Below are positions 8,430 through 24,274 of a DNA stretch of 64,000 nucleotides, piece after piece. The notes beneath the pieces were generated by a model that saw only the letters and a list, made by a program, of their open reading frames with translations, searched no databases and was not told the origin of the DNA. A program made the translations under genes and the position numbers. Every line of letters begins with the position of its first letter. Within the stretch, counting starts at the first letter, position 1. Source of the stretch: Glutamicibacter ardleyensis (lineage in GTDB: Bacteria > Actinomycetota > Actinomycetes > Actinomycetales > Micrococcaceae); the NCBI RefSeq assembly GCF_014644555.1, contig NZ_BMKX01000002.1, positions 124,001-188,000 on the forward strand, written 5' to 3'.

Positions 8430-8541
8430 ATTACTTAGATGAGTTTTTACTCATTAACTTGCTAGCTCGAAACGAAGCCGTAGTTCTTGGAAAGGCAACA
8501 GGACCAGGCATCCCGGACCGTGACAAATCCCTACTCCGCGC

Positions 8542-9386
8542 TTAGATGGATTTGACGGCGAGCAGTTCTTTCCAAAGCGTCGTGTACCGGGGCTCATCAT
8601 TTCGCTCCTCATTTCCCACGCCGGACCCTGCTGCAGCCCAGCAACACCCAAGCCAATGGACTTCACACCGTGCTCGGAACGGATTTGCTGGATCAGCGGG
8701 CCAATCTGTTTCGCCTCATGTGCTGAGATGTACGGGTCAAAAGTTTCCTGCATCGCCCAAGGTTGAAGATCCATGACTACCACCCCTGCCCGCGCGTATT
8801 TCGCTCCAACCAGGATCTGGGGGAGTAGCCGTTTCGCTGCGCGGGTGAGCACTACCGGGTCAACCGTGGGTTCTGGTAGTTTCACAGTGATCGCTGGCTG
8901 GTGGTCCTGGTGCTGGTTGTAGTAGCTGGTCATCGCCCACGCCGAGAGGATCTTGGCCTGCTTTCTGGTGCTTATGCAGCCGTGCGGAGGCTCGGTGCGC
9001 GTAAATTCCCATTACTTGTTCCATGCCTACCCGGTCAGTGATGGGATCGGAGAAGCTACGGGAGAAGATCAACTGATCCTTGATCACGCGTTCTTCTTCC
9101 ATGGGATGCAGGGAATCCCGCGCAGCTCTAGGACGGTGCGCATCTGCACCACGGAGAACTTATCCCTGATTCTTACCTCGTTCGCATCGCGGAGGTCTTT
9201 GGCCGTCCAGATGCCTAACCCGCGCAGCCGTTTGGTCAACCGGGGGCCGATGCCCCACACTTCCACTACCGGCAGACGCGCCAGCAGGTTCTCGGTGGTC
9301 TGTGCTGGGGCACGATCCCACACGCACACCCCACCCAGTTCTTTGATGTGCTTGGCGGTCTTGTTCGCCATTTTCGCCAGCGTCTT
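8542..9386 (-). pseudogene. umuC: umuC-type DNA polymerase V subunit, C-terminal part (disrupted)
   Basis: On the minus strand this reads KTLAKMANKTAKHIKELGG, the thumb/HhH region VWGIGPRL, IRDKFSVVQMRTVLEL, EEERVIKDQLIFSRSFSDP, then ILSAWAMTSYYN, the little-finger and C-terminal VKLPEPTVDP and IRSEHGVKSIGLG segments, and a stop at 8542-8544. At least three one-base frameshifts break it (near 9103, near 8980 and near 8598). It continues the middle piece at 18558-18800 and the N-terminal piece at 24275-24522 once the two mobile elements are removed. The native protein acts as an error-prone polymerase in the SOS response; this copy is non-functional. Confidence 0.88.
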
Positions 9387-9398
9387 GAACCATGGATT

Positions 9399-9552
9399 GT
9401 TGCATCAAATGCAACTAGATACGTATCCATTGATGACCAATAGGGCATGCCTTCGATATGAGGCTCTCGCAGCTCCAGCCTAGCCAATGCGAGACCAGAT
9501 TGAGCATTGACAGTTGTTGCATCTATCCAAACAGTCGGGGATTAGATGCAAC
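9399..9552. promoter_or_regulatory. repeated GTTGCATC/GATGCAAC sites at the left end of element 1
   Basis: GTTGCAT-CAA-ATGCAAC is a perfect 7-bp dyad at 9399-9415. A further GTTGCATC at 9516-9523 and GATGCAAC at 9545-9552 form a second inverted pair. The last site contains the ATG (9546) of the recombinase gene. Such sites could be recombinase arm or core sites, or operators for the HTH protein. Element 2 begins with a related TTGCATCAGATGC. Confidence 0.6.
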
Positions 9553-10655
9553 ATTTTTTGGATGTCAGCAACCTCCGGCAAGTGCTATCACTCGATTCCG
9601 GAACCGCGGCCCTTCACCCTGACGAAGCGGTCTACGAATCGATGCTCGGCTCCTGGGAACAACAACAGCGAAGCCGAAGCCTTGCCGAAACCACCATCAA
9701 AGCCCGAACTTCCGCCGTCAGGCACTTCGCAGACTACGCAGGCTCCTACCCGTGGAAGTGGCAGGCGTCCGATCTAGACGAATACACGAGTCACATGCGT
9801 TCCGAACGCCTCGCGATCTCAACCATCAGACAACGACAAGGAATCTTGCAAGTATTCTGCAACTACCTGATCAGCCCCGAATACGACTGGGTCGAAATCT
9901 GCGAAGCCCAATTCGGAGATACACCATCCCAAATCTGCCTGCCATGGAACACCACAAAACACGTTGCAGACTACGAAGGTATTCCGGCTAGGCGCGCATT
10001 GACCTTCGACGAGATTGAGAAGCTGTTCAACTACGCCGACTCTAGAGTTGAAACCGCCGCCAAGGATGGCCGCAAGGGCGCATTGGCAGCACTTCGAGAC
10101 ACCCAAATGTTCAAGACCGCCTACGCCTTCGGCCTGCGACGGGCCGAACTGCGCGGTCTGGACATCCACGACCTTCATGCGAACGCACGCGTTCCCCAAT
10201 GGGGACAGTACGCCGCCATGCACGTTCGATGGGGAAAATCGAGCAAGGGAAGCGCGCCGAAACGTCGGACTGTTTTGCTCGTTCCTGAACTCTCATGGTG
10301 GGTAGATGGCATGCAGCAGTGGGTTGACGAAGGTCGCGCACTCTTTGCACCTGGAGAACTTCCGGCGATGTGGCCCACCGAACGAAAAACCCGAGTGTCC
10401 CTTGAATACATTGATCGCCGATTTACGGCCCTCCGGCATGAAGCCGGCCTCGACCCCGCATTAACGTTGCATTGCCTGCGTCATTCCTACGTCACCCACT
10501 TGATCGAGTACGGCTACGCAGATCGATTCGTCCAAGAACAGGTCGGTCACCAACATTCCTCAACGACGGCGATCTATACCTCGGTCAGCGGCGACTACAA
10601 GAACCGAATTCTCGCGGACGCATTGAGCCGCTTCAACACCCTGGAGATGCCATGA
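9546..10655 (+). CDS. tyrosine recombinase (element 1, first gene)
   Basis: A 369-residue site-specific recombinase with an N-terminal SAM-like core-binding domain (about 35-130) and a C-terminal catalytic domain. Catalytic residues are complete: Arg in FGLRRAELRGL, the HCLRHS box (His-x-x-Arg), the VGHQHSSTTAIYT box with His and the nucleophilic Tyr. A GKSSKGSAPKRR strand-turn probably holds the catalytic Lys. The start ATG follows GGGGA. The stop overlaps the next start in ATGA. It is a close structural counterpart of the recombinase at 18951 and presumably moves element 1. It points away from the left end of the element. Confidence 0.9.
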   Translation: MQHFLDVSNLRQVLSLDSGTAALHPDEAVYESMLGSWEQQQRSRSLAETTIKARTSAVRHFADYAGSYPWKWQASDLDEYTSHMRSERLAISTIRQRQGILQVFCNYLISPEYDWVEICEAQFGDTPSQICLPWNTTKHVADYEGIPARRALTFDEIEKLFNYADSRVETAAKDGRKGALAALRDTQMFKTAYAFGLRRAELRGLDIHDLHANARVPQWGQYAAMHVRWGKSSKGSAPKRRTVLLVPELSWWVDGMQQWVDEGRALFAPGELPAMWPTERKTRVSLEYIDRRFTALRHEAGLDPALTLHCLRHSYVTHLIEYGYADRFVQEQVGHQHSSTTAIYTSVSGDYKNRILADALSRFNTLEMP

Positions 10656-10996
10656 CCAAGCGAGTTGAGACCGTGTGGAACCTGCGCCGATTGATGGCTG
10701 ATCAGGGGCTTTTCAAAACCACTGAACTGATTCCCATGCTTGAGGATTTCGGCGTCAGCCTCTCCCGGGAGCAAGTTTTCCGTCTGGTCATCCAGACACC
10801 CGAGCGAGCGAACTTGAACTTCATCGGAGCGGTGTGCGCCGCACTGAAATGCACAGTCTCGGACCTGATTGAAGTTCGAGTCGTGGAGGAGAAAGCCGTC
10901 GTGAACACCGTTGAGCCGTCCCGAGGTTCCATCCGCAACATTCGGCCAAAGCCTGCCAGAATCCACCGCCCGCCACACGCTCCTCAGGGCAAATGA
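10652..10996 (+). CDS. small HTH protein (element 1, second gene)
   Basis: A 114-residue protein with a Cro/C1-type helix-turn-helix in residues 7-75: WNLRRLMADQGLF, then VSLSREQVFRLV, then FIGAVCAALKCTVSDLIE. A basic, proline-rich tail (IRPKPARIHRPP) follows. The tail has a counterpart (GLRPRRAQIPP) in the element 2 protein, so it is likely functional, perhaps contacting DNA or a partner. Start and stop overlap the neighbouring genes in ATGA, which implies fixed stoichiometry with the recombinase and the large protein. It may repress the element or direct recombination, but this is inferred only. Confidence 0.8.
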   Translation: MTKRVETVWNLRRLMADQGLFKTTELIPMLEDFGVSLSREQVFRLVIQTPERANLNFIGAVCAALKCTVSDLIEVRVVEEKAVVNTVEPSRGSIRNIRPKPARIHRPPHAPQGK

Positions 10997-13002
10997 GTAC
11001 GCCATCTCAGGACCCAAAGCTTGTCGTCGACAGAATCGTGTCGGCCTGCAAAGAACAGGTTCCCGAGCTCCCCAAATCAATGCTTGCCTCGGCAGCGACC
11101 AGTGTAGGAGGCCCGCATGCTCGTACCTGGCTTGTAAGAGAACTAGCTTCAAAACCCGATTTGCTCATTTCGGGCCGCTCGGACGCATCGCCGACAGCCT
11201 ACCGTCTGATCAAAGAACTACGGTCAAGGGGTTTCGAAAACATCCAACTGCCGCGGTGTTCCACCTGCGGGCGTGCCCAGAAACTTCCCCACAAGGATGA
11301 TAATGGAGGGAAGCGATGTGCTACCTGCAATCGTCGCGCGACTACCCCTGATTGCACATCCTGTGGCAAAGTACGCAAGAGCGGATACCGAATAATCGAC
11401 GGCGCACCCTACTGTGTTAGATGCGCGAACCAAGATGCACGCAGGCATGAAAACTGTGCTCTCTGTGGGAATCTAGACGCAATCGTCGGGAGAAAAAACA
11501 ACCAGCCAGTTTGCAGCAAATGCTATTCCCCACCACCAGTGACCTGTAGCTACTGTGGTGACACTCGCCCCGCGGCCATCCGAAACGCAGGCAAGCCGCT
11601 GTGCACGAAATGCAATCAGTCACTACGCAAAAAACCACGTGTCTGCCCTCGCTGCGGGGAATACCGAATCACGCCCTATCTGCGCGAAGACGGTCCCATT
11701 TGCCCTAGCTGCGCGGACCAATATGAACTGGGCAAATGTGCCGGCTGCTGCAACGACCAACGACCGCTCCAAGGAAACTACTGCTCCATTTGCGTGGCTC
11801 CTCGACTTCTTCGAACCTTGATCTCCAACGATGACGGCACCCCGCATCCACAGCTACTGGCTCTTGAAAGTTACCTCCTCCGCAATGAGAACAACGCCGA
11901 TGCAGTGGTCAGTTGGGCCCGCCGCAGCCCGATGAGGCGCGTCATTCATGACATGGCTACTAATCACACGCCCATTTCCCTCCGTGCAGTTGCCGAACAC
12001 CCCGCAGGAGGTGCGACTGGGCATCTCGCCGCACTGCTCATGGAATCAGGGGTTGTTCCCACCGAAAACTTCGACCGAATTAGATTAGAAGTGTGGCAAG
12101 AAGAGTACTTCGCAACGCTGCCAAATCCGACCGACCGATCACTTCTGAAACAATATTCGGCATGGATCGTCAACCCCCGATTCGCACATTCCGCACACCT
12201 AAGTACCAAAGATGAGAGCCTTCGCCACAGAGGTTCCAAAGCGCATCTCATCGCGGTCGCCGAACTCCTAGGAACGCTCGATGACCTTAATCTGGATCTC
12301 GGAACCATCCCCCAACGCATTTTCGACGCTTATGTGGCCAACCGCGGGCGGACTGGCAAACAGCTCACGCCCTTTATTCGCTGGGCGCGCACCCGCGGCC
12401 TTACCCGTTTGAACAGTGAGTACTTGAAAAGCGATTTGGGGGCATCGGGAGTATCGGGAGCTTCCGACGATGAACGTTGGGCTTGGGTGAAGAACCTCCT
12501 AGCTGCTGAGGACATCGGGTTGAGCTCGCGCGTCGGTGGACTCCTTGCGCTCATCTATGGGACGGCACTGACCCGCGTTGTCTCGCTTCGATGTGAAGCT
12601 GTCATATTAGACGGTGATTCAACGTACATTTTGCTCGGTACCGATCCGATCAAACTTCCGGACGCGGTCGGGTCGCTCCTCCGGCAGCTCTTGGACGCCA
12701 CGCCGACAGGGTTCCACGACGACGACACGTGGCTCTTCAAGGGCCGCCGCCCCGGTCGCCATCTCACCACCGCCGCGTTGCGCCTCCCGCTCACGAAAAA
12801 AGGGATCAACATACGTGCGGCAAAGAATGTCGCGCTCGTGAACCTCTCCAGGGACCTACCGCCCTCGGTCTTGGCTGATCTCCAGGGGAATTTCCGTCTA
12901 CGCCGCGGAACGCTGGAGTGCACAAAGCGGCCACGATTGGACCGATTACCCTCGTATCCGACTTACGACAGGACCCGGCTAGGCATCAATACCAAATTCT
13001 AA
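10993..13002 (+). CDS. zinc-ribbon-array protein with recombinase-like C-terminal half (element 1, third gene)
   Basis: A 669-residue protein. Residues 1-90 form a helical domain shared with the element 2 protein. Residues about 90-270 hold six CxxC...CxxC zinc ribbons, each 20-40 residues (CSTCG...CATC, CTSCG...CVRC, CALCG...CSKC, CSYCG...CTKC, CPRCG...CPSC, CAGCC...CSIC). The second half resembles a core-binding domain followed by a degenerate tyrosine-recombinase fold. LLALIYGTALTRVVSLRC aligns with the first catalytic box, but Ala stands where Arg is expected, and no HxxR or nucleophilic Tyr box is visible. It is therefore probably an accessory subunit. The start overlaps the HTH gene in ATGA. 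Confidence 0.75.
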   Translation: MSTPSQDPKLVVDRIVSACKEQVPELPKSMLASAATSVGGPHARTWLVRELASKPDLLISGRSDASPTAYRLIKELRSRGFENIQLPRCSTCGRAQKLPHKDDNGGKRCATCNRRATTPDCTSCGKVRKSGYRIIDGAPYCVRCANQDARRHENCALCGNLDAIVGRKNNQPVCSKCYSPPPVTCSYCGDTRPAAIRNAGKPLCTKCNQSLRKKPRVCPRCGEYRITPYLREDGPICPSCADQYELGKCAGCCNDQRPLQGNYCSICVAPRLLRTLISNDDGTPHPQLLALESYLLRNENNADAVVSWARRSPMRRVIHDMATNHTPISLRAVAEHPAGGATGHLAALLMESGVVPTENFDRIRLEVWQEEYFATLPNPTDRSLLKQYSAWIVNPRFAHSAHLSTKDESLRHRGSKAHLIAVAELLGTLDDLNLDLGTIPQRIFDAYVANRGRTGKQLTPFIRWARTRGLTRLNSEYLKSDLGASGVSGASDDERWAWVKNLLAAEDIGLSSRVGGLLALIYGTALTRVVSLRCEAVILDGDSTYILLGTDPIKLPDAVGSLLRQLLDATPTGFHDDDTWLFKGRRPGRHLTTAALRLPLTKKGINIRAAKNVALVNLSRDLPPSVLADLQGNFRLRRGTLECTKRPRLDRLPSYPTYDRTRLGINTKF

Positions 13003-13181
13003 GCATCCCCAGCCGGGTGTTCAGCTACCCCTGACAGCGCTCCGTCACTGAACACTTCGCCGGACGGGTCATAGGGAACACTCGACTTTCCTGTGAATCT
13101 GGGTCCGGAAGATCGGTGCGGAGATTCACGCTAAGGACGTTCCGGAGTTGAATCCGGCTTGGAGGGTGAAGTTCTGTGGAT

Positions 13182-13635
13182 CTAAGCGGCGGCCTCGTCG
13201 GCGCGTTTGATCGCAGGCTAGATGGTGGAACGGGCGATGCCGAAAAGCTAGGCAATTTCAACAGTCATGTGCGTTCATGCCTCGTGAATGGAACCCAAGT
13301 GATCTTCCTGCACCTTGGCGAGTTTGAGCTTCTTTCCACGTAGCTTGCCCTTTGCTCTTTCCACGTAACTTGCCCTTTGCTTTGGCGAAAGCCATCCCTT
13401 CGCGGATTCGGGCCCGGATCAGGTCTATCTCTAATTCGGCGACCAAGGCCAGAGCATTGAAAAGGAGCTTGCCCACGGAGTCCGAGGGGTCATAGACGGA
13501 GCCACCGATGCAGAGCTTGATCTCACGGCGAATGAGTTCATCCATTATGTCCCTTTGCATCGCGCAGGGACCGTCGTACGGGACATTTGCAAAGTAGGAC
13601 GTTTCGACCTGGCTTGACTCTCCCCTCTTGGGCAA
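13182..13635 (-). pseudogene. serine recombinase (Hin/resolvase type), truncated and frameshifted
   Basis: The minus strand reads a mid-protein segment, IKLCIGGSVYDPSDSVGKLLFNALALVAE, in which the GxLxxxLLFNxLAxVAExExDLI pattern marks the resolvase catalytic-domain end and long helix; AKAKGKLRGK follows. The N-terminal ~60 residues with the catalytic Ser are absent. A 25-bp tandem duplication shifts the frame. The C-terminal HTH (FGIARSTI) is interrupted by three stops. It is an old remnant inside element 1. Confidence 0.8.
13332..13381. repeat. 25-bp tandem duplication in the serine-recombinase remnant
   Basis: Two adjacent copies of a 25-base unit (13332-13356 and 13357-13381), beginning CTTTCCACGTA and ending CCCTTTGCT, differ at one base. 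The unit length is not a multiple of three, so it breaks the reading frame just after the catalytic domain. Confidence 0.9.
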
Positions 13636-13727
13636 GCGGCTTATGTGAGAACAGGAAAAAAGAACACCATGCTGACCGCAGCGATACGTTCGAAGACTAA
13701 AGAAGAGATCCTGAACTCTGCTTAGCC

Positions 13728-14831
13728 TTACGGAGTGCGCAACACCTTGACCGGATCCGAATGCGCCGCATAGGCAGCAGGCACTAAAGTGCTGGCTCCA
13801 GCGGCAAACAGCGCCAGCACTACGACGCCGAAGCAGAAGGCCAGCGGGGGTGCTGTGCCCGTACTCATGGTGATTCCCAGGCCCACAGACATCCCCGCCA
13901 AAGCTCCAGCAACAGCAGGGATCAGCGTACGCAGCAACATGAGCTGGACGATGTCGTTGCGCTTTGCTCCCAAGGCTCGCCGCCGCCCGAGATCCTTGCG
14001 ACGCACGAGAATATCAGCGAAGACCACGACGGCTACCAGAAGTGCACCGATGCCAAGGGACCCGTACAGCATGGAGCGTCCAAAAGCGCCCAAGTCTCCG
14101 ACGATCTCATCATGCAACTGCGCCAGTTGAAGCGGCGAGCGAACTGAAATGGCTTCAGGGTCATTCAGCTGCCCAAAGAGCCCAATTACTGAGCGCTGTG
14201 CAGCCGCCGCTTGGCTGGAATCGCTCAGGATTAGATGCAGATTCGTTGCAGTGCTGCCGGGGGGTGCCTTGAAAACCACTCCCTGGGACAAATTGTCGAA
14301 GGGCTCCAAGGGCATATACGACCCGACGATCGCGTAATCCACCGGGATTTCCCTATCCGCGATGCCAACGACCCCTACCGGGTGCTGCAGGCCGAGCTTG
14401 GCCAACGCTGTGGTAGAGACCAGCGCTTCACCTGGACCTGGATAACGGCCTGATTCCAAGCGGACGGCAGATTCGAGCTCGCCGGTGACAGCCCACGCTG
14501 GCACCGGTTCTGCCCCATCGCCGATGACCGTATTCTTCACATCAACCGGCGAACTCAATCCAACAGCCCGGTCGGACACAGAGAAATTCGCCGCCATGGC
14601 AATCAGCGAGGCGCTGATCAAGCCAGCGGACTTCTTGTCGGTGACCACCAGTTCCCGAGCTCCTGCGGAATTGATGCGCTGGGCTACCTGATCTTCTGCC
14701 GCAGCGGTTCGCCCCACGGTGGATATGGTCATGATGCACATCGCCGCGGTGATCAGGCATACCAGTGCCGAAGGCACCTTGCTGGCCCACGCCGTGGCTA
14801 GGGCTTCGCGCAGCAGTGTTCGCAGGTTCAT
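13728..14831 (-). CDS. ABC transporter permease (MacB/FtsX type)
   Basis: A 367-residue membrane protein with one N-terminal helix (about 19-40), a large extracytoplasmic domain of about 200 residues and three C-terminal helices (about 255-275, 300-325, 335-355). This is the MacB/LolC topology. The RRKDLGRRRALGAKRNDIVQL loop between the first two C-terminal helices is the family signature. Its start overlaps the ATPase stop by 4 bases, making it the last gene of the operon running from 17245. The role is probably export of the peptide at 17607 or extraction of a toxic peptide, inferred from context. Confidence 0.85.
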   Translation of the reverse strand: MNLRTLLREALATAWASKVPSALVCLITAAMCIMTISTVGRTAAAEDQVAQRINSAGARELVVTDKKSAGLISASLIAMAANFSVSDRAVGLSSPVDVKNTVIGDGAEPVPAWAVTGELESAVRLESGRYPGPGEALVSTTALAKLGLQHPVGVVGIADREIPVDYAIVGSYMPLEPFDNLSQGVVFKAPPGSTATNLHLILSDSSQAAAAQRSVIGLFGQLNDPEAISVRSPLQLAQLHDEIVGDLGAFGRSMLYGSLGIGALLVAVVVFADILVRRKDLGRRRALGAKRNDIVQLMLLRTLIPAVAGALAGMSVGLGITMSTGTAPPLAFCFGVVVLALFAAGASTLVPAAYAAHSDPVKVLRTP

Positions 14832-15472
14832 AGTTCCAGCACCTCGTCTGCCCGGCTGATGACGTAGGGGTCGTGGGTGGCGATGACAATGGTTCGCTGT
14901 TTGGCCGCGGCCGCTTCGCAGAAGATGTCCAAGACGCTAGCGGCATTGGCGGGGTCAAGGTTGCCTGTCGGCTCATCAGCCAAAATCACCGACGGGTCGT
15001 TGATCAGCGCCCTGGCCACGGCGACACGCTGGGCTTGGCCTCCGGAAATCTGGCCCGGTTTGTGGTCGCTGCGTGCGGCCACACCGAGCTGCTCCAAGAG
15101 CAGCGCTGCCCTGTCCAAGGCAACCTGGCGGTCAACACCGGCATAGATGGTCGGTTCGATGACCGAATCGATGATGGTACGCGAAGGGTCCAACGATGAA
15201 TCCTGGAAGACGAAGCCCAGCTGATGGGCCCGCACCTTGGACCGGATTGCATCCGCTGCCATTGACTGCGGCTGATCATGGAGAATCACCTCTCCGCGGC
15301 TCGGCGTGAGCATCAGGCCCAGCACATAGAGGAGCGTGGATTTCCCGCGTCCCGAAGGGCCGGTTAGCGCCGTGACTTTCCCCGGGGTGAATTCGTAGCT
15401 GAGCCCGCCAAAAAGTTCTTCGCCGTCCTTGGTGTAGCGGAACCCCAAATCTTTGACGCTCAGGACACTCAA
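14828..15472 (-). CDS. ABC transporter ATP-binding protein (MacB/LolD type)
   Basis: A 214-residue ATPase with Walker A GPSGRGKST (residues 38-46), a Q-loop in LGFVFQDSSLDP, signature ISGGQAQRVAVA, Walker B VILADEPTGNLDP and the switch His in ATHDPYV. The Walker A has Arg where Ser or Gly is usual. The signature is the ISGGQ form instead of LSGGQ. It overlaps both neighbours by 4 bases. It powers the permease at 13728, with the adaptor at 15469 as the third component. Confidence 0.92.
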   Translation of the reverse strand: MSVLSVKDLGFRYTKDGEELFGGLSYEFTPGKVTALTGPSGRGKSTLLYVLGLMLTPSRGEVILHDQPQSMAADAIRSKVRAHQLGFVFQDSSLDPSRTIIDSVIEPTIYAGVDRQVALDRAALLLEQLGVAARSDHKPGQISGGQAQRVAVARALINDPSVILADEPTGNLDPANAASVLDIFCEAAAAKQRTIVIATHDPYVISRADEVLEL

Positions 15473-16548
15473 TTCTCCTCACCTTGAGCGTTGAGCACCT
15501 GGACGTTGGTGCCTCTCTCCACCCCGGTGACAATTACAATTCCCTGCCCGCTGGCCACGATCTCGACCGGAACTGTTCCGTTCTCGGTGACAACTTCGGT
15601 GCCGCCGCCGGCGGTGGTGGTTACCGCGGCTGCTGGGATGCCGATGCCCTTGGTTTCAGGCACGACAATGACCTTGGAGCGCAGGGTGACGTTGCTGCCG
15701 GTCGGTAGTTGGTCGCATTCCTTCTTGCAGACAGCTTCGCCGTCTGGCGCGGTCAGGGTGTGGATGACATTGTCTGACTCGTCGGTGGTGGTTTGCCCGA
15801 TCTGCGCCTTCCAGGAAAGCTTTCCATGCTGGACCTCAATGATGGAGTCCTGCGGGATCAGCGCGGCTTGGTCTGCGGTCAAGGAGAGAGTGAACGTTCG
15901 CTCCCCGCTTGGAGCCAGCACCGCATCTTCGCCACCAGTCAGGGTCTTCCCTGTCCGGATGGATTCAGCGAGGTCTGCCTGGCCTGGCAGTGCGGGGATG
16001 GCAACGATCCGACCGAGCGGAATGATCCCGGTGGGCTTCTGGTTGGTTTCTTTCTGCCATTTCTTGATGGCCAGTGTGGTCTGCGAGGTGAAGCGCGTAT
16101 CCGGGGTACCGGTGAAATGCCCTTGGTCCTTGAGGAAGTCTTCAAGCTGCTTTACGTTTGCGCCGGAGGCTCCGGGGCCCATGTCCTGGTAGAAGGGTGT
16201 CGTTCCGGAAATGGCATAGACATCGGTGCCGGCCACGGAATAGAGGGCTTCGCCGGACTTCTTTTGTCCCGGAGTGGCGGCGGAGACGACGCCGGGAAGA
16301 TGGTTGCTGGCAACTACCTGGGTCGGCTGTTTCACCGTGGTGCTCAAGTTCAGTGATGACCCAATTGATGACAACTCGGCTTTGACCCAGACGGATTGCG
16401 AAGCTTCGGGAGATGCATTGGCGCTTTGCCCTACCAAAGTTGCGTTGATCGCCCAGCCGAGTGTTCCGCAAACAACCGCTACGACCAGCAAGAGCGAGAG
16501 GAACCTAGGTGAAAGCTTCTTGCTTTCGGAGGCATTTCTAGTTCCCAT
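15469..16548 (-). CDS. membrane-anchored adaptor with peptidoglycan-binding domain
   Basis: A 359-residue protein has an N-terminal membrane anchor (about 15-38). A PG_binding_1 domain (about 125-170) is recognisable from GANVKQLEDFLKDQGHF and TLAIKKWQKETN. C-terminal beta-rich segments resemble periplasmic adaptor (HlyD/MacA) barrels. Such adaptors pair with MacB-type permeases in actinobacteria. The 3' end overlaps the ATPase by 4 bases, and its start overlaps the lipoprotein stop by 11 bases. It probably docks the ABC complex to the cell wall. Confidence 0.82.
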   Translation of the reverse strand: MGTRNASESKKLSPRFLSLLLVVAVVCGTLGWAINATLVGQSANASPEASQSVWVKAELSSIGSSLNLSTTVKQPTQVVASNHLPGVVSAATPGQKKSGEALYSVAGTDVYAISGTTPFYQDMGPGASGANVKQLEDFLKDQGHFTGTPDTRFTSQTTLAIKKWQKETNQKPTGIIPLGRIVAIPALPGQADLAESIRTGKTLTGGEDAVLAPSGERTFTLSLTADQAALIPQDSIIEVQHGKLSWKAQIGQTTTDESDNVIHTLTAPDGEAVCKKECDQLPTGSNVTLRSKVIVVPETKGIGIPAAAVTTTAGGGTEVVTENGTVPVEIVASGQGIVIVTGVERGTNVQVLNAQGEEN

Positions 16549-17245
16549 AGAGTTCCTCCGCAGATGGAGAAGGAGGGCACTTCTGGTTCATTTCAGTAGT
16601 ATCGGCAGAAGCGAGATCCATGGTGTCGTAGGGGGTCCACGGTGCTGTACCGCTGGCCATCCCCTCGACGAAGGTTTCTTCGCTCGGCAAGGAACCTGTG
16701 TCCAGATTAAGGCCCTGAAGGCAAGGCACGAGCGCGTCGCGGTAGTACGCGTAGAACGTCCGCAACTGCGTGCGAGTCAGTGCCTGGCTGTATTTGAGGT
16801 CCTGAGGATATTGAAGCGCACAGGTGTAGCTGGCTTCAGCGGCAGCTTGCTCCTGGTCTTCAGTGAATTTCGTGGAGAAAGAACCGCCTTCTTCCACTGT
16901 TGTCGGGAACCCTAGATTGGTGAGGCATGTTGCTTGCTCTTCGGGCCAGACTTCTTGAGAGACATATCGGATTCGCTCGACTTCTGGCCAGGAGCTGAGG
17001 CCGGATTCTTCTTGCTTGCCCTTCACGAAGTCGTCCCAGGTGAATTCGCCATAGCCGCCGTTATCGAGCGGGTCGTCCTTGCTGCTTAGAGTTGGAGCTT
17101 CTTCACTCACTAAGCTCTCCGAGGGGGTGGCTCCCGTCGGTGCGGTCAGCTCGGCAGTAGGGTCTCCGCCGCTACTGCATGAGGCAAGGGCCAGCGAAAA
17201 TATTGCGATGAGGCTCAATGCGCGGAACTTGGGAGTTCTAGTCAT
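16538..17245 (-). CDS. lipoprotein of the ABC export operon
   Basis: A 235-residue protein begins MTRTPKFRALSLIAIFSLAL with the lipobox LASC, so Cys-23 would be lipidated and the protein anchored outside the membrane. The mature part is acidic and Ser/Thr/Pro-rich for about 50 residues, then has a folded region with four Cys. No family was recognised. It is the first gene of the minus-strand operon and is divergent from the secreted peptide at 17607. It could bind the peptide or protect its producer (inferred from location only). Confidence 0.75.
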   Translation of the reverse strand: MTRTPKFRALSLIAIFSLALASCSSGGDPTAELTAPTGATPSESLVSEEAPTLSSKDDPLDNGGYGEFTWDDFVKGKQEESGLSSWPEVERIRYVSQEVWPEEQATCLTNLGFPTTVEEGGSFSTKFTEDQEQAAAEASYTCALQYPQDLKYSQALTRTQLRTFYAYYRDALVPCLQGLNLDTGSLPSEETFVEGMASGTAPWTPYDTMDLASADTTEMNQKCPPSPSAEELYGN

Positions 17246-17606
17246 GGAATCGTCTTTCGTAAACGGTTCTTACGGGTACTGGCTTCATCTCAAAGCGATA
17301 ACAAACCCGCTGCTGTGACCTGCCTTACTCGGTAGTATATACATTGCGTGCGACTATCGAAGTAAAAGAACCTAGCAGGTGGAAAGTTTCGCATGATTAA
17401 GTATGTTGAGGTCATGAGCCCGGTGCAGCCACTGTTGCTTTGATAAGGCTAATGCTAGAAATATTCATCCAGGTCTAGAAATTTTCAATAAATCCCGGTA
17501 GGTTCATTTTCAGGTCACGCTCAGGTTGCTTTTAGGTTTTTATCGTGGCTTTGTCTTGATTTGATAATCGATGCCACGGACGCGTCATTGCTCGAAGGGA
17601 TATTCA
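17246..17606. promoter_or_regulatory. divergent intergenic region between lipoprotein and secreted peptide genes
   Basis: This 361-base AT-richer stretch holds no gene. It must contain promoters for the leftward ABC operon and the rightward peptide gene. Direct-repeat-like pieces AGGTCTAGAAAT and TAGGTTC/TCAGGTT occur around 17470-17530. A CGAAGGGA ribosome site at 17593-17600 serves the peptide. Confidence 0.5.
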
Positions 17607-17939
17607 ATGAAGAACCGTTTACGTACTATGGCGGCCACCGTCCTTGTTGCGGGACTGGCAGTTGCTGGTGCAGGCGCTGCCCAGGCAGACACGAAGAGTG
17701 GCTACAAGAACTGCGCGTCTGGCTACAGCGCAAGTCTGACAACCAAGCTCAATGCTTCAGGCGTGGGAACCCAGTCAACAACGCACTCCCACAAACATGG
17801 GGTTACCACTGTCAAGCAGACTTTCTCGGGTTTGGGGCCGAATACGTCTAATTCTCGCACCCAGTATAGCTATTGGTCGGCAACCTCTCAGCGCGTGATT
17901 GAGTATGCAACGGGCGGATGCATTCGAAACCCGGTATAA
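17607..17939 (+). CDS. secreted small peptide, candidate bacteriocin-like
   Basis: A 110-residue precursor starts at ATG 17607 behind CGAAGGGA. A Sec signal (MKNRLRTMAATVLVAGLAVA) ends at AQA, giving a mature form of about 83 residues. That form is rich in Ser, Thr, Gly, Tyr and His, with just two Cys (near its start and near its end), likely disulfide-bonded. Small size, a Ser/Thr-rich soluble body and a divergent MacB-type exporter recall lactococcin-972-type loci of Gram-positives, but the family motif is not clearly present. It is the last recognisable gene of element 1, followed by a strong hairpin. It may be a toxin, signal or surface peptide. Confidence 0.7.
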   Translation: MKNRLRTMAATVLVAGLAVAGAGAAQADTKSGYKNCASGYSASLTTKLNASGVGTQSTTHSHKHGVTTVKQTFSGLGPNTSNSRTQYSYWSATSQRVIEYATGGCIRNPV

Positions 17940-18013
17940 AAACTTACCGAGGGAGTATCTACGTCTAAAGATTCCGTGGATATTGCCTGAGGATAATTCA
18001 ATTCTAATATTCT

Positions 18014-18047
18014 CGGACCGTCTTGCCGTTCTTGGCAAGGCGGTCCG
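18014..18047 (+). terminator. hairpin downstream of the secreted peptide gene
   Basis: The stem CGGACCGTCTTGCC pairs with GGCAAGGCGGTCCG (14 bp with one wobble) around a GTTCTT loop, followed by GCATTTTAAT. It lies 75 bases after the peptide stop and probably ends its transcript. Confidence 0.8.
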
Positions 18048-18557
18048 GCATTTTAATGCTAGGTTGCGCTTCCCTGCAGATCTGGTCCACTATTGCGCTC
18101 GTTGATGGACGGCTGAAATTGACTCTTCTTCCATATACAGAGTTGCTTACGCGCTAGTGATCGTGAGGCATTATATGTTTCAAGTGGGTTGGTCAGGATC
18201 CGTGATCCTTGCGCTTTGGATCTTGTGACATTCCGTAAGAAATAGATTGCACTCTATGCCAAGTGAAGATATTCGAATGCCAGAGCAGCGGAAGCCAATC
18301 GATTGTCGCAGGTGTCCCGCGGAAGGTCCCTTACGGACAGTTCGGCGCCGCGCCGCGGAGCTCAAAAAGTGACAACTATGGAAAGAAGTCCTAAACAACC
18401 TGAATTCCCGTTTGCCCCGCCCAATTATGTGCCCGATGATGGTTCCCTTGCGGTCGGGAAAGGCTATGCAGAAGGAGCCTGAAAACGACCCTCCTGTTCC
18501 ACGACAAATTCCGAATGGATCGGGCGAATAAGCTACTCATGAATACTCGGCTATACC
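18048..18557 (+). other. right end of element 1, two tiny open frames of doubtful status
   Basis: About 510 bases without a recognisable gene. Two small open frames can be read: 18256-18372 (38 residues, basic, with CRRCP) and 18378-18482 (34 residues, with PEFPFAPPNYVPDDG). They lie almost end to end, so they might be small proteins, but neither has a convincing ribosome site. The last 32 bases (18526-18557) carry the end motif shared with element 2. Confidence 0.35.
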
Positions 18558-18800
18558 GGTAGACTTGGCGATCCCCACGCAGACGGGCAACCCGGTCAGC
18601 CTGAACACCTCAGCCTTGATCCGCTCACCCAGGGCTTGCAGCTCATCCAGTGTGCCGGACACGCCCAGAAACGCCTCGTCAATGGAATAGACCTCCACCC
18701 ACGCCGAGAAACGGCCTAAAAGCTTCATGACGCGGGCGGACATTTCCCCGTACAGCTCGTAATTAGAGGACTTCGCGACCAGCCCGAGTTCCGCGCGATA
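18558..18800 (-). pseudogene. umuC: umuC-type polymerase gene, middle part
   Basis: On the minus strand 81 codons read RAELGLVAKSSNYELYG, MSARVMKLLGRFSAWVEVYS, IDEAFLGVSGTLDELQ, LTGLPVCVGIAKST. This is the palm segment with the catalytic Ser-Ile-Asp-Glu motif of Y-family polymerases. It is open throughout but has no proper start or end of its own. It is flanked on both sides by element ends and joins the N-terminal piece at 24275 and the C-terminal piece at 9386. Confidence 0.9.
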
Positions 18801-18950
18801 TTGCATCAGATGCGAGCTAGTGGTGATTTGCCATGTCGCAATACTGGGCCTCGGGAAAATTGACGACCCATCTAATCGGTATAAATCCTTGCCGTGAGGC
18901 CAAACTTCGCGTTTAATGCATGAATAGAGCGTTTATCGAGTGGGGTTTCG

Positions 18951-20072
18951 ATGTCTGACGGGGTGCCGCATGGAGTGTCATCGCTGTATCTGGTGCGCGG
19001 TGTTTCCTTCCTTGACGCGCCTGATGCGGTCTTTGAAGCGATGTTGACTGGTTGGCGGATGCAACAAGTTGGAGGCCGTCGACTCAAGCCGAATTCAGTG
19101 GACCGGGCTCTGAATATCGTACGGCGGTTTGAAACCTACACGCTGAAGAAGCCGTGGGAGTGGTCTGCTGGTGATTTTGATGAGTGGATGACGCTGTTGG
19201 TCTCGCAGCGAGCTCTTGCGGCGTCGACAATTCGTGGATATCAAGGCGCGGTCCGCCAGTTCTGTGAGTACATATGTTCCGAGCACTACGGATGGGTCGA
19301 GGAATGCTTGGATCGTTTTGGCACTCATCCGGTGCAGGTGTGCCATGAGTGGAATAGCCTGCCCCATCTTTATGAGTATGAAGGTGGTTCTGGACGCAGA
19401 CCTTTGGACCGTGATGAGCTCCAACTGTTGTTTGACCGTGCCGATGATGAGGTCTCGTGTCTGTTGGATGGGCGTCGCAAAGGAGCGCTGCCGGCATTCC
19501 GGGACGCAACGCTGTTGAAGGTCGTGTATGCCTGGGGCCTGCGTTCGAGCGAGGCGGTGGGTCTTGATATCAGCGATTTCTATCGGAATGCCAAGGCGCC
19601 TCAGTTTGGTCAGTATGGTGTCATGCAGGTGCGTCATGGAAAGTCGAGTAGGGGAGGCCCTCCTAAGAGGCGGGCGGTGTTGTCGATTTTCGATTGGGCT
19701 GTGGAGGCATTGCAAGAATACGTAGAGCAGGTCAGGCCGCTGATGGTTCAATCGGAGACCAGCGCGCTCTGGCTCTCTGAACGCGGCACGCGATTAAGGT
19801 CCCGAGAAGTTTCTTCGCGGTTTGCGGCATATCGCGATGAACTGGGATTGGATCGAGTGTTGACTCCACATGCTTTGAGGCACTCCTATGTGACGCACTT
19901 GATCGAATCAGGTGTGGATCCAACGTTCGTGCAGCGACAGGTAGGGCATCAGTATTCGGCAACGACCGCAATCTATACGGGGATTAGCGCGGACTACATG
20001 AATACGATGATGGGCCAGGCAATAGAAAGAACACGTCAACACGTAATCAAGGACGAAGGTTCAACCTCATGA
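18951..20072 (+). CDS. tyrosine recombinase (element 2, first gene)
   Basis: A 373-residue recombinase, paralogous along its whole length to the one at 9546. Catalytic boxes are intact: Arg in AWGLRSSEAVGL, HALRHSYVTHLIESG with the HxxR motif, and VGHQYSATTAIYT with His and nucleophilic Tyr. The N-terminal core-binding domain includes SVDRALNIVRRFETYTLKKP and STIRGYQGAVRQFCEYI. The ATG at 18951 follows GAGTGGGG. Its stop overlaps the HTH start in ATGA. It presumably catalyses movement of element 2. Confidence 0.9.
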   Translation: MSDGVPHGVSSLYLVRGVSFLDAPDAVFEAMLTGWRMQQVGGRRLKPNSVDRALNIVRRFETYTLKKPWEWSAGDFDEWMTLLVSQRALAASTIRGYQGAVRQFCEYICSEHYGWVEECLDRFGTHPVQVCHEWNSLPHLYEYEGGSGRRPLDRDELQLLFDRADDEVSCLLDGRRKGALPAFRDATLLKVVYAWGLRSSEAVGLDISDFYRNAKAPQFGQYGVMQVRHGKSSRGGPPKRRAVLSIFDWAVEALQEYVEQVRPLMVQSETSALWLSERGTRLRSREVSSRFAAYRDELGLDRVLTPHALRHSYVTHLIESGVDPTFVQRQVGHQYSATTAIYTGISADYMNTMMGQAIERTRQHVIKDEGSTS

Positions 20073-20422
20073 AGCGTATTGAGTATCAATGGAAATTGCG
20101 GGAAGTCATGGCCGCTGCGGGCATGTTTTCCACGACTAAGCTGGTTCCGTTGCTGGCTGAGCGCGGTGTGCATCTTTCAACGAGCCAAGTGTATCGGCTG
20201 GCGGCCGAGAAGCCGGAGCGAATGAATATGCAGGCGCTGATCGCGCTCCTGGATATTTTCGATTGCACGTTTGAAGAGCTTGCTCCCCGTGTCGTTTCCG
20301 AGAATGCGGGAGCCGCTACCGGAACCATGGATCTCGGCGTTGAACGGGGAAGCACGGCAGCGGATCAGCTGCGAGCGAGCGGTTTGCGGCCGCGTAGAGC
20401 GCAGATTCCACCTCATGGCTGA
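20069..20422 (+). CDS. small HTH protein (element 2, second gene)
   Basis: A 117-residue counterpart of the protein at 10652. Residues 4-72 form a Cro/C1-like helix-turn-helix (WKLREVMAAAGMF, VHLSTSQVYRLA, ALIALLDIFDCTFEELA). The middle is low in conservation, then a basic tail GLRPRRAQIPPHG mirrors the element 1 tail. It overlaps the recombinase by 4 bases and the large protein by 8 bases, so the three are translated together. Its likely job is controlling the recombinase or binding element ends, inferred from context. Confidence 0.8.
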   Translation: MKRIEYQWKLREVMAAAGMFSTTKLVPLLAERGVHLSTSQVYRLAAEKPERMNMQALIALLDIFDCTFEELAPRVVSENAGAATGTMDLGVERGSTAADQLRASGLRPRRAQIPPHG

Positions 20423-23000
20423 CCAGGTATTCGAACAGCTAACGAACCTGATCTGCTCAGTTGAAAGTGCCCTTAGTCGTCCTCACGTCCAGGAAGTGGT
20501 TATCGATAGTTTCCGCCAGCTACCTGTGGCAAGACGAACCTTAGACATCTTGGAAGCCTCACCGGAGCTGTTGACATCCAAGGACCCGCACATGCCAGCG
20601 GCAGTGGCCAAGCTTCTTCAACGCCTGAGCCAAGAAGGCGCGCAACACATTCAACCTCCTGAATGCGCGCACTGTGGCCAGCAACGTCCGCTACGCCGGT
20701 TAGCGCCAGCCGGACGCATCTGCGATCCGTGCAGCGCGGCACAGAAGAAGATAAATGGCCAGTGCCATCGATGCAAAGAAGAACGGCTAGTAAGCAAGGG
20801 ACCGGCAAAAGCCAACTACTGCCGACGATGTATGAATGAATTGAGCACGGAAGCGCCGGACCGAATTATCAATTACGTCCGCATTCATCAACTCATTGCA
20901 CCCCCAATGACCCGTGCTGCTTTGGACTCGCTTCCCACCTTGAGGAACCGGTTGGTTCGACTAATGCTTGAGATCGAGAGTCATGGGGAGCTCTGGTTTG
21001 CTGAACCTGCGCAAGGCTCGAGGCAATTCTGCCGATTCTACGATCTGTTGCGTCACGCAGGGGCGCGGTTGCCAGAACGCCAGTGCGCAGGCTGCGGGAC
21101 GACGCGAACCCTAACGGAACGAGTCGAGGGACAAATTAGCTGCCGACGATGCTACCAGCAGGCGCATCGAAAGAGCTGCGACGGCTGCGGAGAGTATGCC
21201 ACCATGGAGCGTGTCCTCTCGGAGGGGAGGCGTCTGTGTCAACGGTGCACCCATCAGCTCCCAGACGAGCGTGCGGTGTGCTTTTCGTGTGGGAACCTTC
21301 GACTCATCGCATTTCGAGATATCCGAGGCCCGCTTTGCTCAACTTGCCGTCAAACCTCGAAAATCGATACGTGCAGCAACTGCGGGATTCAAGCTCCTTG
21401 CGTCTTCCAAGGAACTGAAGAGGCCTTGTGTAAGGCATGTAGTGACACGAAGAGGATCGATCAGTGCACGGAATGTCGCAATACGCGCCGTTGCCGTTGG
21501 GCAGGGACAGCTCGGGCCGTTTGCGAACAATGCTCCAATCCCCGCTCACCGTGCAGGGCGTGTGGCGAAGTGCGGCTGCGACACAAACGACATGCGAGCG
21601 GGACGGGGTATCTGTGCTGGGCTTGCGTCCCACCGATCATTGAACCCTGCACGAACTGCGGTCAGAAAGCTATCGTCAACGGAAGGCTAGGAGGCCGTCC
21701 GTTTTGTCTCCGGTGCTATCCAAAGCAACATGAAACCTTCCGCCCATGCGCAGGATGCGGAACGATCACTCGGCTCATTGCCAAACATTGTCCCCGATGT
21801 AGAGCAGATCAGATGATCCGACAGATGGTGCCCGATGACCTTGCTGCTTCTGATGAAAGAATCGCCAAACTCCGGCAACGCTGGTTTCAAGGAGCACCGT
21901 CGAAGATCATTTATGCGTTTGAACGTGGAACAACCGCTGCTACACTCATCACCAAAATTCTTGCCGACCCGTCCTTGCGAACCCATGAATTTATTGATGG
22001 CGCAGGTTCGGAGAGTCAGACCCGCTCACTGCGAGCCGTGCTCGTTGAGCATGAGCTGTTGCCACCGCGCGATGAGCTACTCGCTCGGTTCGAAGCATGG
22101 CTTGTAGCAGTCCTACGGAGCATCGCCGATCCGCAAGAGTATCGGTATGTCACCCAATACGCGCGGTGGCGGCATTTGCGGTTGCTCCGCAAGAACACCA
22201 TGCCACTGCGAATGCAGCAGATATCCTGGCGACGTATTGAAATTATGGAAGTTCTCGCTCTGCTGAAGTGGAAGCAACAGCTCGGGGGATCACTTGCTTC
22301 CTTGGCACAAAAAGACCTAGATGAATGGTTGGCCCAGGGAACTCGAATGCACATCCATCACTTTGTGCATTGGACTTCCCAACAAAACATCACGGCCAAA
22401 CTTTCTGCGCCTTCTCCCCAGCGGTCAGTTCTCAGCCCGTACGCCCTTAGCCAAGAAGAACGATGGCGTCTGTTAGCTGATGTGACTTCGGATGGGACGC
22501 TTGAACCGCGTACCAAATTCGCGGCCGGCATGATGCTGCTGTATGGCATCCGCGCTCCAAAGATTGTGCAATTGCGAATCGACGATCTCGAGATCAGCGA
22601 AGCGGCGGTCCGTGTCCGCTGGGGATCAGTGCCATTGGTGCTGCCGGCTGAATTTGCTCCCGTAGCGCGAGAGTTATCTGAGCAGCGCACTGCGCCACGC
22701 CTCTTCGTTGATAGCAGGCAGCAAGAATGGCTTTATCCAGGCACGACGGCAGGGCATCATATGGCTCCACGAAACCTCAACGGGCGATTGCGTCGGATTG
22801 GGATTCCTCCGCGGTTGGCTCGAACGAGTGCCCTGATCGCTTTGATCCAAGAGCTGCCGCCGGTGGTGTTGAGCCGTTTGACTGGGCTGGAGATCAGTTC
22901 TGCAATCATGTGGTCTGAAGCAACCGGGGCCAGCGGCAGTGCATACGCCCAAGGTGCCAGCACTCGTTTCAATGAGGGTCCGGTAGTTCTAGAGGAGTGA
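20415..23000 (+). CDS. zinc-ribbon-array protein with recombinase-like C-terminal half (element 2, third gene)
   Basis: Starting at ATG 20415 (overlapping the HTH gene), this 861-residue protein has an N-terminal helical domain, two zinc ribbons, a helical insert of about 90 residues, then eight further ribbons (ten CxxC...CxxC units in all, against six in element 1). The C-terminal ~330 residues look like a tyrosine-recombinase fold. MLLYGIRAPKIVQLRIDDL keeps the first Arg, and ARTSALIALIQELPPVVL keeps an Arg at the second-box position. The box His residues are missing and Trp stands at the nucleophile position. It is therefore probably a structural or targeting subunit and not a catalyst. 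Confidence 0.75.
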   Translation: MADQVFEQLTNLICSVESALSRPHVQEVVIDSFRQLPVARRTLDILEASPELLTSKDPHMPAAVAKLLQRLSQEGAQHIQPPECAHCGQQRPLRRLAPAGRICDPCSAAQKKINGQCHRCKEERLVSKGPAKANYCRRCMNELSTEAPDRIINYVRIHQLIAPPMTRAALDSLPTLRNRLVRLMLEIESHGELWFAEPAQGSRQFCRFYDLLRHAGARLPERQCAGCGTTRTLTERVEGQISCRRCYQQAHRKSCDGCGEYATMERVLSEGRRLCQRCTHQLPDERAVCFSCGNLRLIAFRDIRGPLCSTCRQTSKIDTCSNCGIQAPCVFQGTEEALCKACSDTKRIDQCTECRNTRRCRWAGTARAVCEQCSNPRSPCRACGEVRLRHKRHASGTGYLCWACVPPIIEPCTNCGQKAIVNGRLGGRPFCLRCYPKQHETFRPCAGCGTITRLIAKHCPRCRADQMIRQMVPDDLAASDERIAKLRQRWFQGAPSKIIYAFERGTTAATLITKILADPSLRTHEFIDGAGSESQTRSLRAVLVEHELLPPRDELLARFEAWLVAVLRSIADPQEYRYVTQYARWRHLRLLRKNTMPLRMQQISWRRIEIMEVLALLKWKQQLGGSLASLAQKDLDEWLAQGTRMHIHHFVHWTSQQNITAKLSAPSPQRSVLSPYALSQEERWRLLADVTSDGTLEPRTKFAAGMMLLYGIRAPKIVQLRIDDLEISEAAVRVRWGSVPLVLPAEFAPVARELSEQRTAPRLFVDSRQQEWLYPGTTAGHHMAPRNLNGRLRRIGIPPRLARTSALIALIQELPPVVLSRLTGLEISSAIMWSEATGASGSAYAQGASTRFNEGPVVLEE

Positions 23001-23224
23001 GTATTGCCAGCGGCGTAAGGGGATTTATGTGGTCAGTGAGACGTCTAAGTCCCACGATGCTGTTGCATACCGGGTAAAGGCCCGGCCTGACACAGAATTT
23101 GATCGGTCGGCGTACCCACCAAATTTGTAGGCTGAGTCTGGTCCTCAAAAGTGAGTTGCTCGGCGTAATCCAGCCAAGAAATCAATATTGGATCTAACTT
23201 CGGTCCGATAAGGAGTCGAGAAAG

Positions 23225-24070
23225 CTACTCATGCTCGTTGGCGCTTTGCGAAAGCTCCTGAGCAAGGCGCAACACTTCACGTGTTTCAGCTTCATGGCCA
23301 CGTTTAGCCAAGTTGCGGAAGGCTTCCTGATTCTTGCCCGGAGGATTAAACCGGTATGCGGCGTTGGGCAAAACTTCGCCAGGAATTCCTTCGCCTAGCG
23401 AATCACGAATCGAACGGTAAAGTGCTGGATGCTCATTCATGAGGCGCGGCAATATATTCAACAAGGCGAGATCTTTCTCAGAGGCTGCGGGGACGCCCGC
23501 TTCACGCTCATCTTGGCGTTTACCCTCGATATGCTCACCTAGCCGCAGTTGCCATCCGATTTGATGCACATGCGCGAGAACTTCACGCAGTGCCGATTCA
23601 TCCTTCATGTCAGTAGGCGCCATGATCTGGCCTGTTTTGCTCAGGTCCACATAGAAGCCGCGTTGTTTGGAGCGGTCGTGGCGGCGTGACCAAGATTTAA
23701 TGGTGCCCAGGTAACGAGAATTTTCTTCGTAATCTGGTGCCTCAGTGTCGAACCAATATGGTTCCTCCAGTAGAAAGTTGTGTACTGCTTCTAGTTTCTT
23801 TTCATGGCTCGCCCAGAGCTTATCCAGTTCTTCGCATCTGAAGAGTTCTCCGTCGGGGGCGTACTCGAGGGCAACTCGTCGTTCATGTATGGCTATTGCT
23901 TTTCCGGATTCCTCGAGTCCCAAAATTGCTAGTGATCGAGCCAGTGAGACATGCCCGAGTTCGAGCACGGCGATAGCGGAGTTCAGGAGGGTGTCTGCGT
24001 TTTCGAGCAACGCATCCTGTAGCTGTGCCACCTGTTCGGGTGTGAGATCGGGGAGTCGTCGTATCGTCAT
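23225..24070 (-). CDS. AbiV-family abortive infection protein
   Basis: A 281-residue, mostly helical soluble protein starts with ATG at 24070. The N-terminal region has the AbiV pattern: ENADTLLNSAIAVLELGHVS followed by ARSLAILGLEESGKAIAI, with the family's conserved A-x-x-L-A-I-L-x-x-E-E-x-G-K-A core. AbiV proteins abort phage infection by blocking late phage development. Other members are of unknown function but typically sit among defence genes. Here it is the only cargo of element 2, read toward the recombinase trio. A phage-defence role is inferred from family and mobile context. Confidence 0.75.
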   Translation of the reverse strand: MTIRRLPDLTPEQVAQLQDALLENADTLLNSAIAVLELGHVSLARSLAILGLEESGKAIAIHERRVALEYAPDGELFRCEELDKLWASHEKKLEAVHNFLLEEPYWFDTEAPDYEENSRYLGTIKSWSRRHDRSKQRGFYVDLSKTGQIMAPTDMKDESALREVLAHVHQIGWQLRLGEHIEGKRQDEREAGVPAASEKDLALLNILPRLMNEHPALYRSIRDSLGEGIPGEVLPNAAYRFNPPGKNQEAFRNLAKRGHEAETREVLRLAQELSQSANEHE

Positions 24071-24274
24071 ACGCTCAGTTTCGCAGATCGCTTCATCGCC
24101 AGCGCCCTTGACCGATTGCCTTCTTCACTATTTTTAGCCTGGAGAAATCCCGCTCGATTGAACGTCCTCCCTGTCTTATGGAGCCGTTTGTGATGAACGG
24201 GTGCTCTCTCAATCCGGATCATAGGCTCCTATCGCGGGAAGAATAACGACAAAACCAATAACACTATCTACCAG

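Follow-up and report, generated by a model that had tools for sequence, protein, structure and literature searches.

Transposons of the Tsy type carry three genes, for a tyrosine recombinase (YRec), a helix-turn-helix (HTH) protein and TnsF, which joins N-terminal zinc fingers to a XerH-like part, with a GIY-YIG nuclease as an optional addition (Faure et al. 2023, PMC10293859; statements on Tsy and TnsF here follow its main text). When ZooTsy was reconstituted in E. coli, loss of any component impaired transposition, circles and simple insertions were found, and both recombinases had to be active, TnsF catalysis being essential. ZooTsy TnsF binds a conserved motif in comM, and in Tn6022 a dead TnsF picks the same gene for a Tn7-type transposase; TnsF is a target selector by experiment in both Tn6022 and Tsy (PMC10293859). 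Separately, XER modules with a core of XerD-like, XRE and XerC-like genes and variable cargo were described in umuCD on Antarctic Arthrobacter plasmids (PMC6305408). Here we describe two elements with such a trio in a 64,000-nucleotide stretch of Glutamicibacter ardleyensis DNA (contig NZ_BMKX01000002.1, positions 124,001 to 188,000; the whole stretch is called the window). Their genes encode a tyrosine recombinase (P1), a small HTH protein (P2) and a zinc-ribbon protein with a recombinase-like tail (P3), and each element is, in our judgement, probably a Tsy-type tyrosine-recombinase transposon in which P3, TnsF-like but catalytically dead, selects the target and P1 is the only catalyst.

The two elements share with Tsy the same three genes in the same order, a third protein in which N-terminal zinc fingers precede a recombinase-like part, and insertion in a conserved part of a DNA-metabolism gene. 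They differ in that the third protein lacks the catalytic Tyr in 46 of 46 aligned rows, whereas TnsF activity is essential in ZooTsy; in that their targets, together with those of their relatives, are umuC, umuD, SRAP, DprA and DUF6349 genes rather than comM; and in that they occur in Actinomycetota, with GIY-YIG absent among the window open reading frames (ORFs) scanned by Pfam. The XER modules are likewise three-gene cores with cargo in umuCD and belong to the same kind of element, placed between umuD and umuC; plasmid pA40H2 encodes a P3 relative (32%) and shares 96% DNA identity over 4.6 kb with locus L105. In the text of PMC6305408 these modules figure as possible novel integrative elements, a description that covers neither the ribbons and the dead tail nor the exact sites and the breadth of the family. 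The sequence-only reading of the window had proposed an undescribed class of mobile element, which did not hold, because Tsy is a named family with largely this trio and the XER modules had been reported in umuCD. What is known is the trio class (Tsy; XER modules), and what differs from ZooTsy in a way bearing on mechanism is an actinobacterial branch with a dead tail. Among the open-access texts listed by literature searches, to which subscription papers and the Tsy supplement did not belong, none was seen to describe how broad this branch is, which umuC codons it enters or a tyrosine-recombinase element whose tail is dead. The words 'actinobacteria', 'umuC' and 'umuD' are absent from the main text of PMC10293859, and its 1,099 TnsF homologues may include members of the actinobacterial branch.

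Two trios within one umuC gene

Both trios lie on the forward strand. In element 1, P1 (9546..10655; Pfam Phage_integrase, 1.1e-21) has its active-site residues, P2 (10652..10996, 114 aa; Pfam HTH_26, 7.2e-8, run from 10643) has its start set by an ATGA overlap, and P3 (10993..13002) carries six zinc ribbons and a dead recombinase-like tail. In element 2, P1 (18951..20072; Phage_integrase, 4.6e-25) and P2 (20069..20422; HTH_26, 1.5e-11) are followed by an 861-aa P3 (20415..23000) with ten ribbons and a tail of the same kind. P2 is a Cro/C1-type HTH protein of 114-117 aa, and consecutive genes overlap by 4 and 4 bp in element 1 and by 4 and 8 bp in element 2. Inspection of the sequences found R, HxxR, GH and Y in both P1 proteins. 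The two trios with one gene order, the overlaps of 4-8 bases and the catalytically complete recombinases of the sequence-only reading were thus all recovered; its range of 9546-23000 encloses the trios but stops at the third gene, whereas the elements end at 18561 and 24276.

Both elements interrupt one and the same umuC gene, a point absent from that reading. The ORFs flanking the trios are pieces of umuC on the reverse strand: the 5′ part (24277..24522; Pfam IMS) matches UmuC model positions 2-59 at 24268-24522, the middle part between the elements (18562..18788) matches positions 62-146 at 18537-18806, and the 3′ part (8454..9387), broken into several frames, matches positions 149-236 at 9084-9371, with the remainder downstream. 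The frame breaks of this 3′ part are separate from the insertions. As reference, a congener genome (G023) was used that has two umuC copies uninterrupted at both points, one complete (L041) and one (L042) with 97% identity over 1.6 kb of flank and a differing 3′ end. By comparison with these copies, element 1 (9388..18561, forward strand, 9174 bp) is inserted in umuC codon 156 (site B) and element 2 (18789..24276, forward strand, 5488 bp) between codons 80 and 81 (site A). Joining the flanks of site A gives 60 bp that differ from L041 by two substitutions and no gap, and at site B the coordinates give an exact join; therefore, no target duplication is present at either site against the uninterrupted congener genes. 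A second copy of the element 1 type, with 81% DNA identity over 3.6 kb, was found on contig C11 of genome G000 (L008, L040), at site B of another, more diverged umuC whose two pieces lie ~20.6 kb apart.

Zinc ribbons and recombinase-like tail of the third protein

The CxxC motifs number 12 in element 1 P3 and 20 in element 2 P3, in agreement with the six and ten ribbons counted in the sequence-only reading. That reading had also described tails without His and Tyr and, in element 1, without the first Arg. All of these losses were confirmed, the first Arg being kept in element 2; the missing Tyr of element 1 is however partly due to a frameshift, as its last ~37 residues are translated in a frame that differs from that of relatives, the conserved end continues in the frame of 12851 (window 12889-13002), and the unshifted relatives carry Trp at the same position. 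The element 1 copy may be inactive owing to this frameshift. Across 46 aligned P3 rows, each 450 aa or longer (without L050 and L099, and with element 1 in its shifted-tail form), the nucleophile position was W in 34, H in 10, I in one, P in one and Tyr in none; the HxxR His occurred in 0 of 46 rows (one gap), the second Arg position was R in 36 and K in nine, and the first Arg was kept in 12. For P1, the catalytic Tyr was present in 45 of 46 aligned rows, the remaining one being a gap, in a family-wide count that covered GLR, the second Arg, GH and Y and had the HxxR His outside it.

The ribbon array was compared with a Tn6022-like TnsF (a protein distinct from the ZooTsy TnsF) whose gene lies on an Acinetobacter plasmid beside those for TnsA, a DDE transposase, TniB and TniQ, and which is called TnsF by gene position plus match. 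Element 1 P3 found it by tblastn in the plasmid collection (E 1e-4), and in a one-against-one blastp (8e-15) its six ribbons aligned with 28% identity; the match of element 2 P3 was weaker (1e-5). The family profile scored 50.1 bits on this match, whereas none of 500 letter-shuffled versions exceeded 4.2. Tn6022-like TnsF, catalytically inactive and a target selector (PMC10293859), resembles P3 in its aligned array and differs in its partners, which are TnsABC and TniQ of a DDE system rather than a tyrosine recombinase.

Structure prediction of the large protein, which the sequence-only reading had put forward as a check, supported a recombinase fold, although with moderate model confidence and low TM-scores. 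The AlphaFold model of element 2 P3 had a mean pLDDT of 73.8 and a pTM of 0.33, and the tail alone 67.1 and 0.42. In Foldseek, XerD (1a0p) was the top match for the whole and the tail models (E 1.0e-3 and 1.5e-4, probability 1.00), followed by XerA, XerH and Cre, with LIM-domain proteins as well for the whole P3; TM-scores were 0.1-0.3. A sequence search of solved structures returned weak matches only (XerD, E 0.32). A tyrosine recombinase fold of the P3 tail is thus supported, not proven, by models with pLDDT of 67-74. In L121, a complete trio has beside it another ORF (16664-17662), divergently placed, whose product has a P3-like tail.

Family breadth, target sites and element ends

Of 395 genomes of the family, 112 had a match to element 1 P3 (E <= 0.001); of 396 genomes of the phylum, 37 had a match to element 2 P3, the genome of the window included, many of these matches being weak or restricted to the tail. 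Element 2 P3 also matched 242 of 72,556 plasmid records, mostly from Streptomyces, Rhodococcus and Arthrobacter, and none of 50,697 phage records. Hosts of the nearest relatives (15 loci) include Microbacterium, Nesterenkonia, Kocuria, Haematomicrobium and Paeniglutamicibacter. A set of 46 loci was assembled from 40 element 1 P3 matches (the top ones plus long-frame and multi-copy ones), five loci obtained via a umuC search and one second copy in the genome of the window. P1, P2 and P3 occurred in this order in 44 of them, some with a split or truncated gene, the exceptions being a remnant (L050) and a locus without P1 (L094). Because P3, P1 or umuC guided the choice of loci, the proportion should not be taken as unbiased; it exceeds chance and answers in the affirmative the search for co-located triplets that the sequence-only reading had suggested. 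Over the 41 loci whose genes were sufficiently complete, the identity matrices of P1, P2 and P3 are correlated (Spearman 0.57-0.59, 0 of 500 permutations).

Four clades share recurrent positions. Clade A (element 2 type) occupies umuC codons 80/81 in four of six loci, clade B (element 1 type) umuC codon 156 in eight of ten (L086 lies outside umuC and L088 is cut by a contig end), and clade C the point after ~codon 101 (101/102) of umuC, in opposite orientation, in six of seven; clade D sits directly behind umuD in five of seven, plasmid pA40H2 and the truncated L114 counted. Together, 23 of 30 loci lie in umuC or right behind umuD, the two of the window included, and 18 of 25 do so when the five umuC-found loci (L047, L048, L050, L052 and L054) are set aside. 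Ribbon number also follows clade, with 10 in A, six in B and in C, nine in D and ~3 in most others; exceptions are the broken genes of L047 and L114, L096 and L097 with six, L116 with 7.5 and L117 with 4.5.

Movement between targets is seen among close copies, in line with the mobility assumed in the sequence-only reading. A 99.9% identical 8.9-kb element lies in umuC in L108 and in an apparent dprA gene in L107, the dprA call being based on one flank (PF02481, 1.1e-50), with the other flank lacking a Pfam match. Likewise, the L093 element, which shares 97.8% identity over 7.4 kb with that of L092, splits a DUF6349 gene into two flanking halves, and its target beside the integrase end, CACGGGTGACG, resembles the umuC sequence CACGCGTCATG. 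The L111 element shares 99.6% identity with one located at a umuD end; it lies inside a long palindrome and is flanked on either side by AGATGA (1404-1448 and 17395-17439). In three pairs of copies at different targets the end sequences are identical to the last base. Judged from these sequences, relatives of the window elements have moved recently. Furthermore, a three-ribbon relative on two contigs of one genome (L101, L102) interrupts an SRAP (yedK) gene, again SOS-associated. Dif-like sequences lie 70-80 bp upstream of the P1 ORF in L100 and L121, which suggests use of chromosome-dimer sites.

The ends are asymmetric. Element 1 begins on its integrase side (9388..9412) with AACC and an inverted motif TTGCAT-N3-ATGCAA that extends slightly beyond the end, and closes at its far end (18546..18561) with TACCGGTA; element 2 begins (18789..18813) with TTCC and TTGCATCAGATGC and closes (24262..24276) with CTACCAGTA, all read on the forward strand. 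In clades B and C, most copies have AACC or AAGC at the start of the integrase-side end, L090 deviating at one base, and a TTGCA-N5-TGCAA-like inverted motif lies within its first ~35 bp; TTGCATCAGATGC is common to the integrase-side ends of clade A and L111/L112, and the simple inverted-motif pattern had no match in those of L105, L110 and L113. At the far end, TACCGGTA is present in all six site B junctions seen, one of them the remnant in L047, and TACCAGTA in element 2, L052, L054, L092, L093 and L094, with CACCAGTA in L095 and TACCAATA in L107-L109. The long end 1 and short end 2 of ZooTsy appear to fit the conserved integrase-side motif and short far end found here. The ZooTsy circle junction (...AATCCCAGTC joined to AAGTTCTGAT...) has a similar CCAGT at the far end, which is no more than a faint likeness.

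Target selection, strand exchange and comparison with other systems

The trio, the exact ends, two hits in umuC at conserved codons, the lack of target duplication, the cargo and the near-identical copies in other genomes are read from the sequence, and a mechanism can be proposed on this basis. Active P1 would circularise the element and then insert the circle; catalytically dead, TnsF-like P3 would bind the umuC target and recruit P1, and P2, by binding DNA, would help or regulate. The complex end would be the one on the integrase side, where the conserved inverted motif lies, and the far end (TACCrGTA) would be the short one. Since P3 would be unable to cleave, all strand exchange would fall to P1, perhaps with a single strand exchanged at each junction and replication completing the process. 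The homology of the P3 ribbons to those of TnsF leads us to read P3 as the target selector and P1 as the sole catalyst.

Several points weigh against this reading, which draws entirely on sequence and model evidence. TnsF catalysis is essential in ZooTsy and lost here, so the two mechanisms cannot be identical, and P1 alone could choose the target. The P3 tail gave no sequence alignment with the TnsF tail (-1.1 bits) and a weak hhalign match to the P1 profile (probability 0.5 on a scale of 0-100, E 0.11); Pfam Phage_integrase scored below its cut-off on the element 2 tail (18.5 vs 27.1 bits) and was not reported for that of element 1. Also, seven of the 30 clade loci lack a demonstrated umuDC placement, at least three of them lying elsewhere.

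The sequence-only reading had left P3 as either target selector or architecture factor, and it is probably best read as the former. That P3 is instead an architecture or directionality factor, like Tfp of the elements called SEs, with P1 itself recognising the umuC site, seems to us rather unlikely. Tfp is a recombinase-fold protein without RHRY in a multi-recombinase element, and GinC of GInts is said to be likewise (PMC10214605), although the GInt paper itself reports the first Arg alone as missing (PMC5385486); target clade moreover tracks P1 identity as well as P3 identity, and two secondary sites (L093, L086) resemble, by eye, the primary site beside the integrase end. These points are set against the homology of the P3 array to the TnsF array, for which target binding is shown (PMC10293859). 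A further possibility, slightly less doubtful but still tentative, concerns the exchange itself: active and dead recombinase would form a mixed complex that exchanges one strand pair only, leaving the junction for replication to resolve, so that the donor copy would be kept. The single catalytically complete recombinase per element, the end sequences preserved to the last base in the three copy pairs and the proposal that SEs copy out (PMC10214605) are consistent with it; ZooTsy, with two active recombinases, however shows circles and simple insertions (PMC10293859), and the AGATGA on both sides of the L111 element would fit a conventional shared core.

It is also unlikely, though the element 1 P3 frameshift and the decayed umuC 3′ part point that way, that both window elements are decaying remnants without present mobility, because element 2 keeps three open frames and both ends, and relatives appear to have moved recently. 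Far less probable is that umuC is a general insertion hotspot and not a specific target. Integron-like elements (ILEs) of Pseudomonas, a different kind with three recombinases, tetR and a 3-bp repeat, do enter the umuC homologue rulB (PMC4542609), and their reported insertion point (pWW0 position 6488; L146, 5500-8500) maps to UmuC codon ~50; but insertions within each clade here recur at one site and in one orientation, and the targets of other members are SRAP, dprA or DUF6349 genes. The ILEs resemble the present elements in site-specific insertion in a umuC homologue and in having one conserved and one variable side, and differ in codon (~50, not sites A, B or C), in their three recombinases and in a repeat where none is seen here.

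To return to P3 as target selector, a wider form of this reading is possible but speculative: Actinobacteria would hold a large Tsy-type branch that works with only one active recombinase, its zinc-ribbon target reader being permanently dead. The target would set the number of ribbons (3 to 10), and the array would thus be a modular protein code by which conserved codons of mobile SOS genes (umuC, umuD, yedK) are addressed. The comparison links a little-studied actinobacterial element to a target selector of known biochemistry and points to a branch in which one protein chooses the target and another catalyses. Should the target be set by the ribbon arrays, these would be modular DNA readers of natural origin, useful for programmable insertion. 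The data also strengthen the view that mobile elements of more than one kind dock in umuC.

Other recombinase-bearing elements were compared and rejected, each by its description in the texts cited. The difference from Tn554 and RIT elements asserted in the sequence-only reading stands on gene content and on the one complete recombinase per element: Tn554 needs two RHRY recombinases (TnpA, TnpB) plus TnpC, and RIT elements need three recombinases with catalytic Tyr (PMC10214605). Tn554 and actinobacterial Tn554-like elements (PMC3414803) are similar in pairing a normal with an abnormally long recombinase and, in some, a small third protein; in the Arthrobacter FB24 plasmid pair, however, the long recombinase has one CxxC, an apparently intact motif and no ribbon array, and no HTH gene lies between the recombinases. 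SE and GInt elements have four genes with two RHRY recombinases, against three genes and one such recombinase here (PMC10214605, PMC5385486); they are alike in that an incomplete-active-site recombinase-fold protein and a small protein assist active recombinases, and SEs differ in leaving a 6-bp footprint (PMC10214605), whereas no target duplication is found here. For the gamma-mobile-trio, element 2 P1 scored 26.4 bits (GmtY/GmtZ NCBIfam cut-off 340) and 19.3 bits (600); the GmtY and GmtZ models were unreported for element 1 P1 and for P3, and GmtZ had no match over cut-off in the genome of the window.

Lastly, the cargo differs between the copies. That of element 2 has an AbiV-family (HEPN) abortive-infection-like gene (23225..24070, reverse strand; Pfam HEPN_AbiV, 1.6e-32) as its sole recognised gene, for which PADLOC gave no AbiV match although Pfam does. 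Relatives carry apparent metal-resistance genes, with metal-handling genes seen by eye in L092 and L108, and the pA40H2 cargo includes a TerC-family gene. In element 1, an FtsX-like permease, an ABC ATPase and a protein with a peptidoglycan-binding domain (13728..16548, reverse strand; Pfam) form an ABC-type system, accompanied, by eye, by small exported proteins. Element 1 also contains a serine resolvase fragment (13258..13635, reverse strand; Pfam Resolvase, 2.4e-9), within which a 25-bp tandem duplication (96%) lies at 13331-13380.

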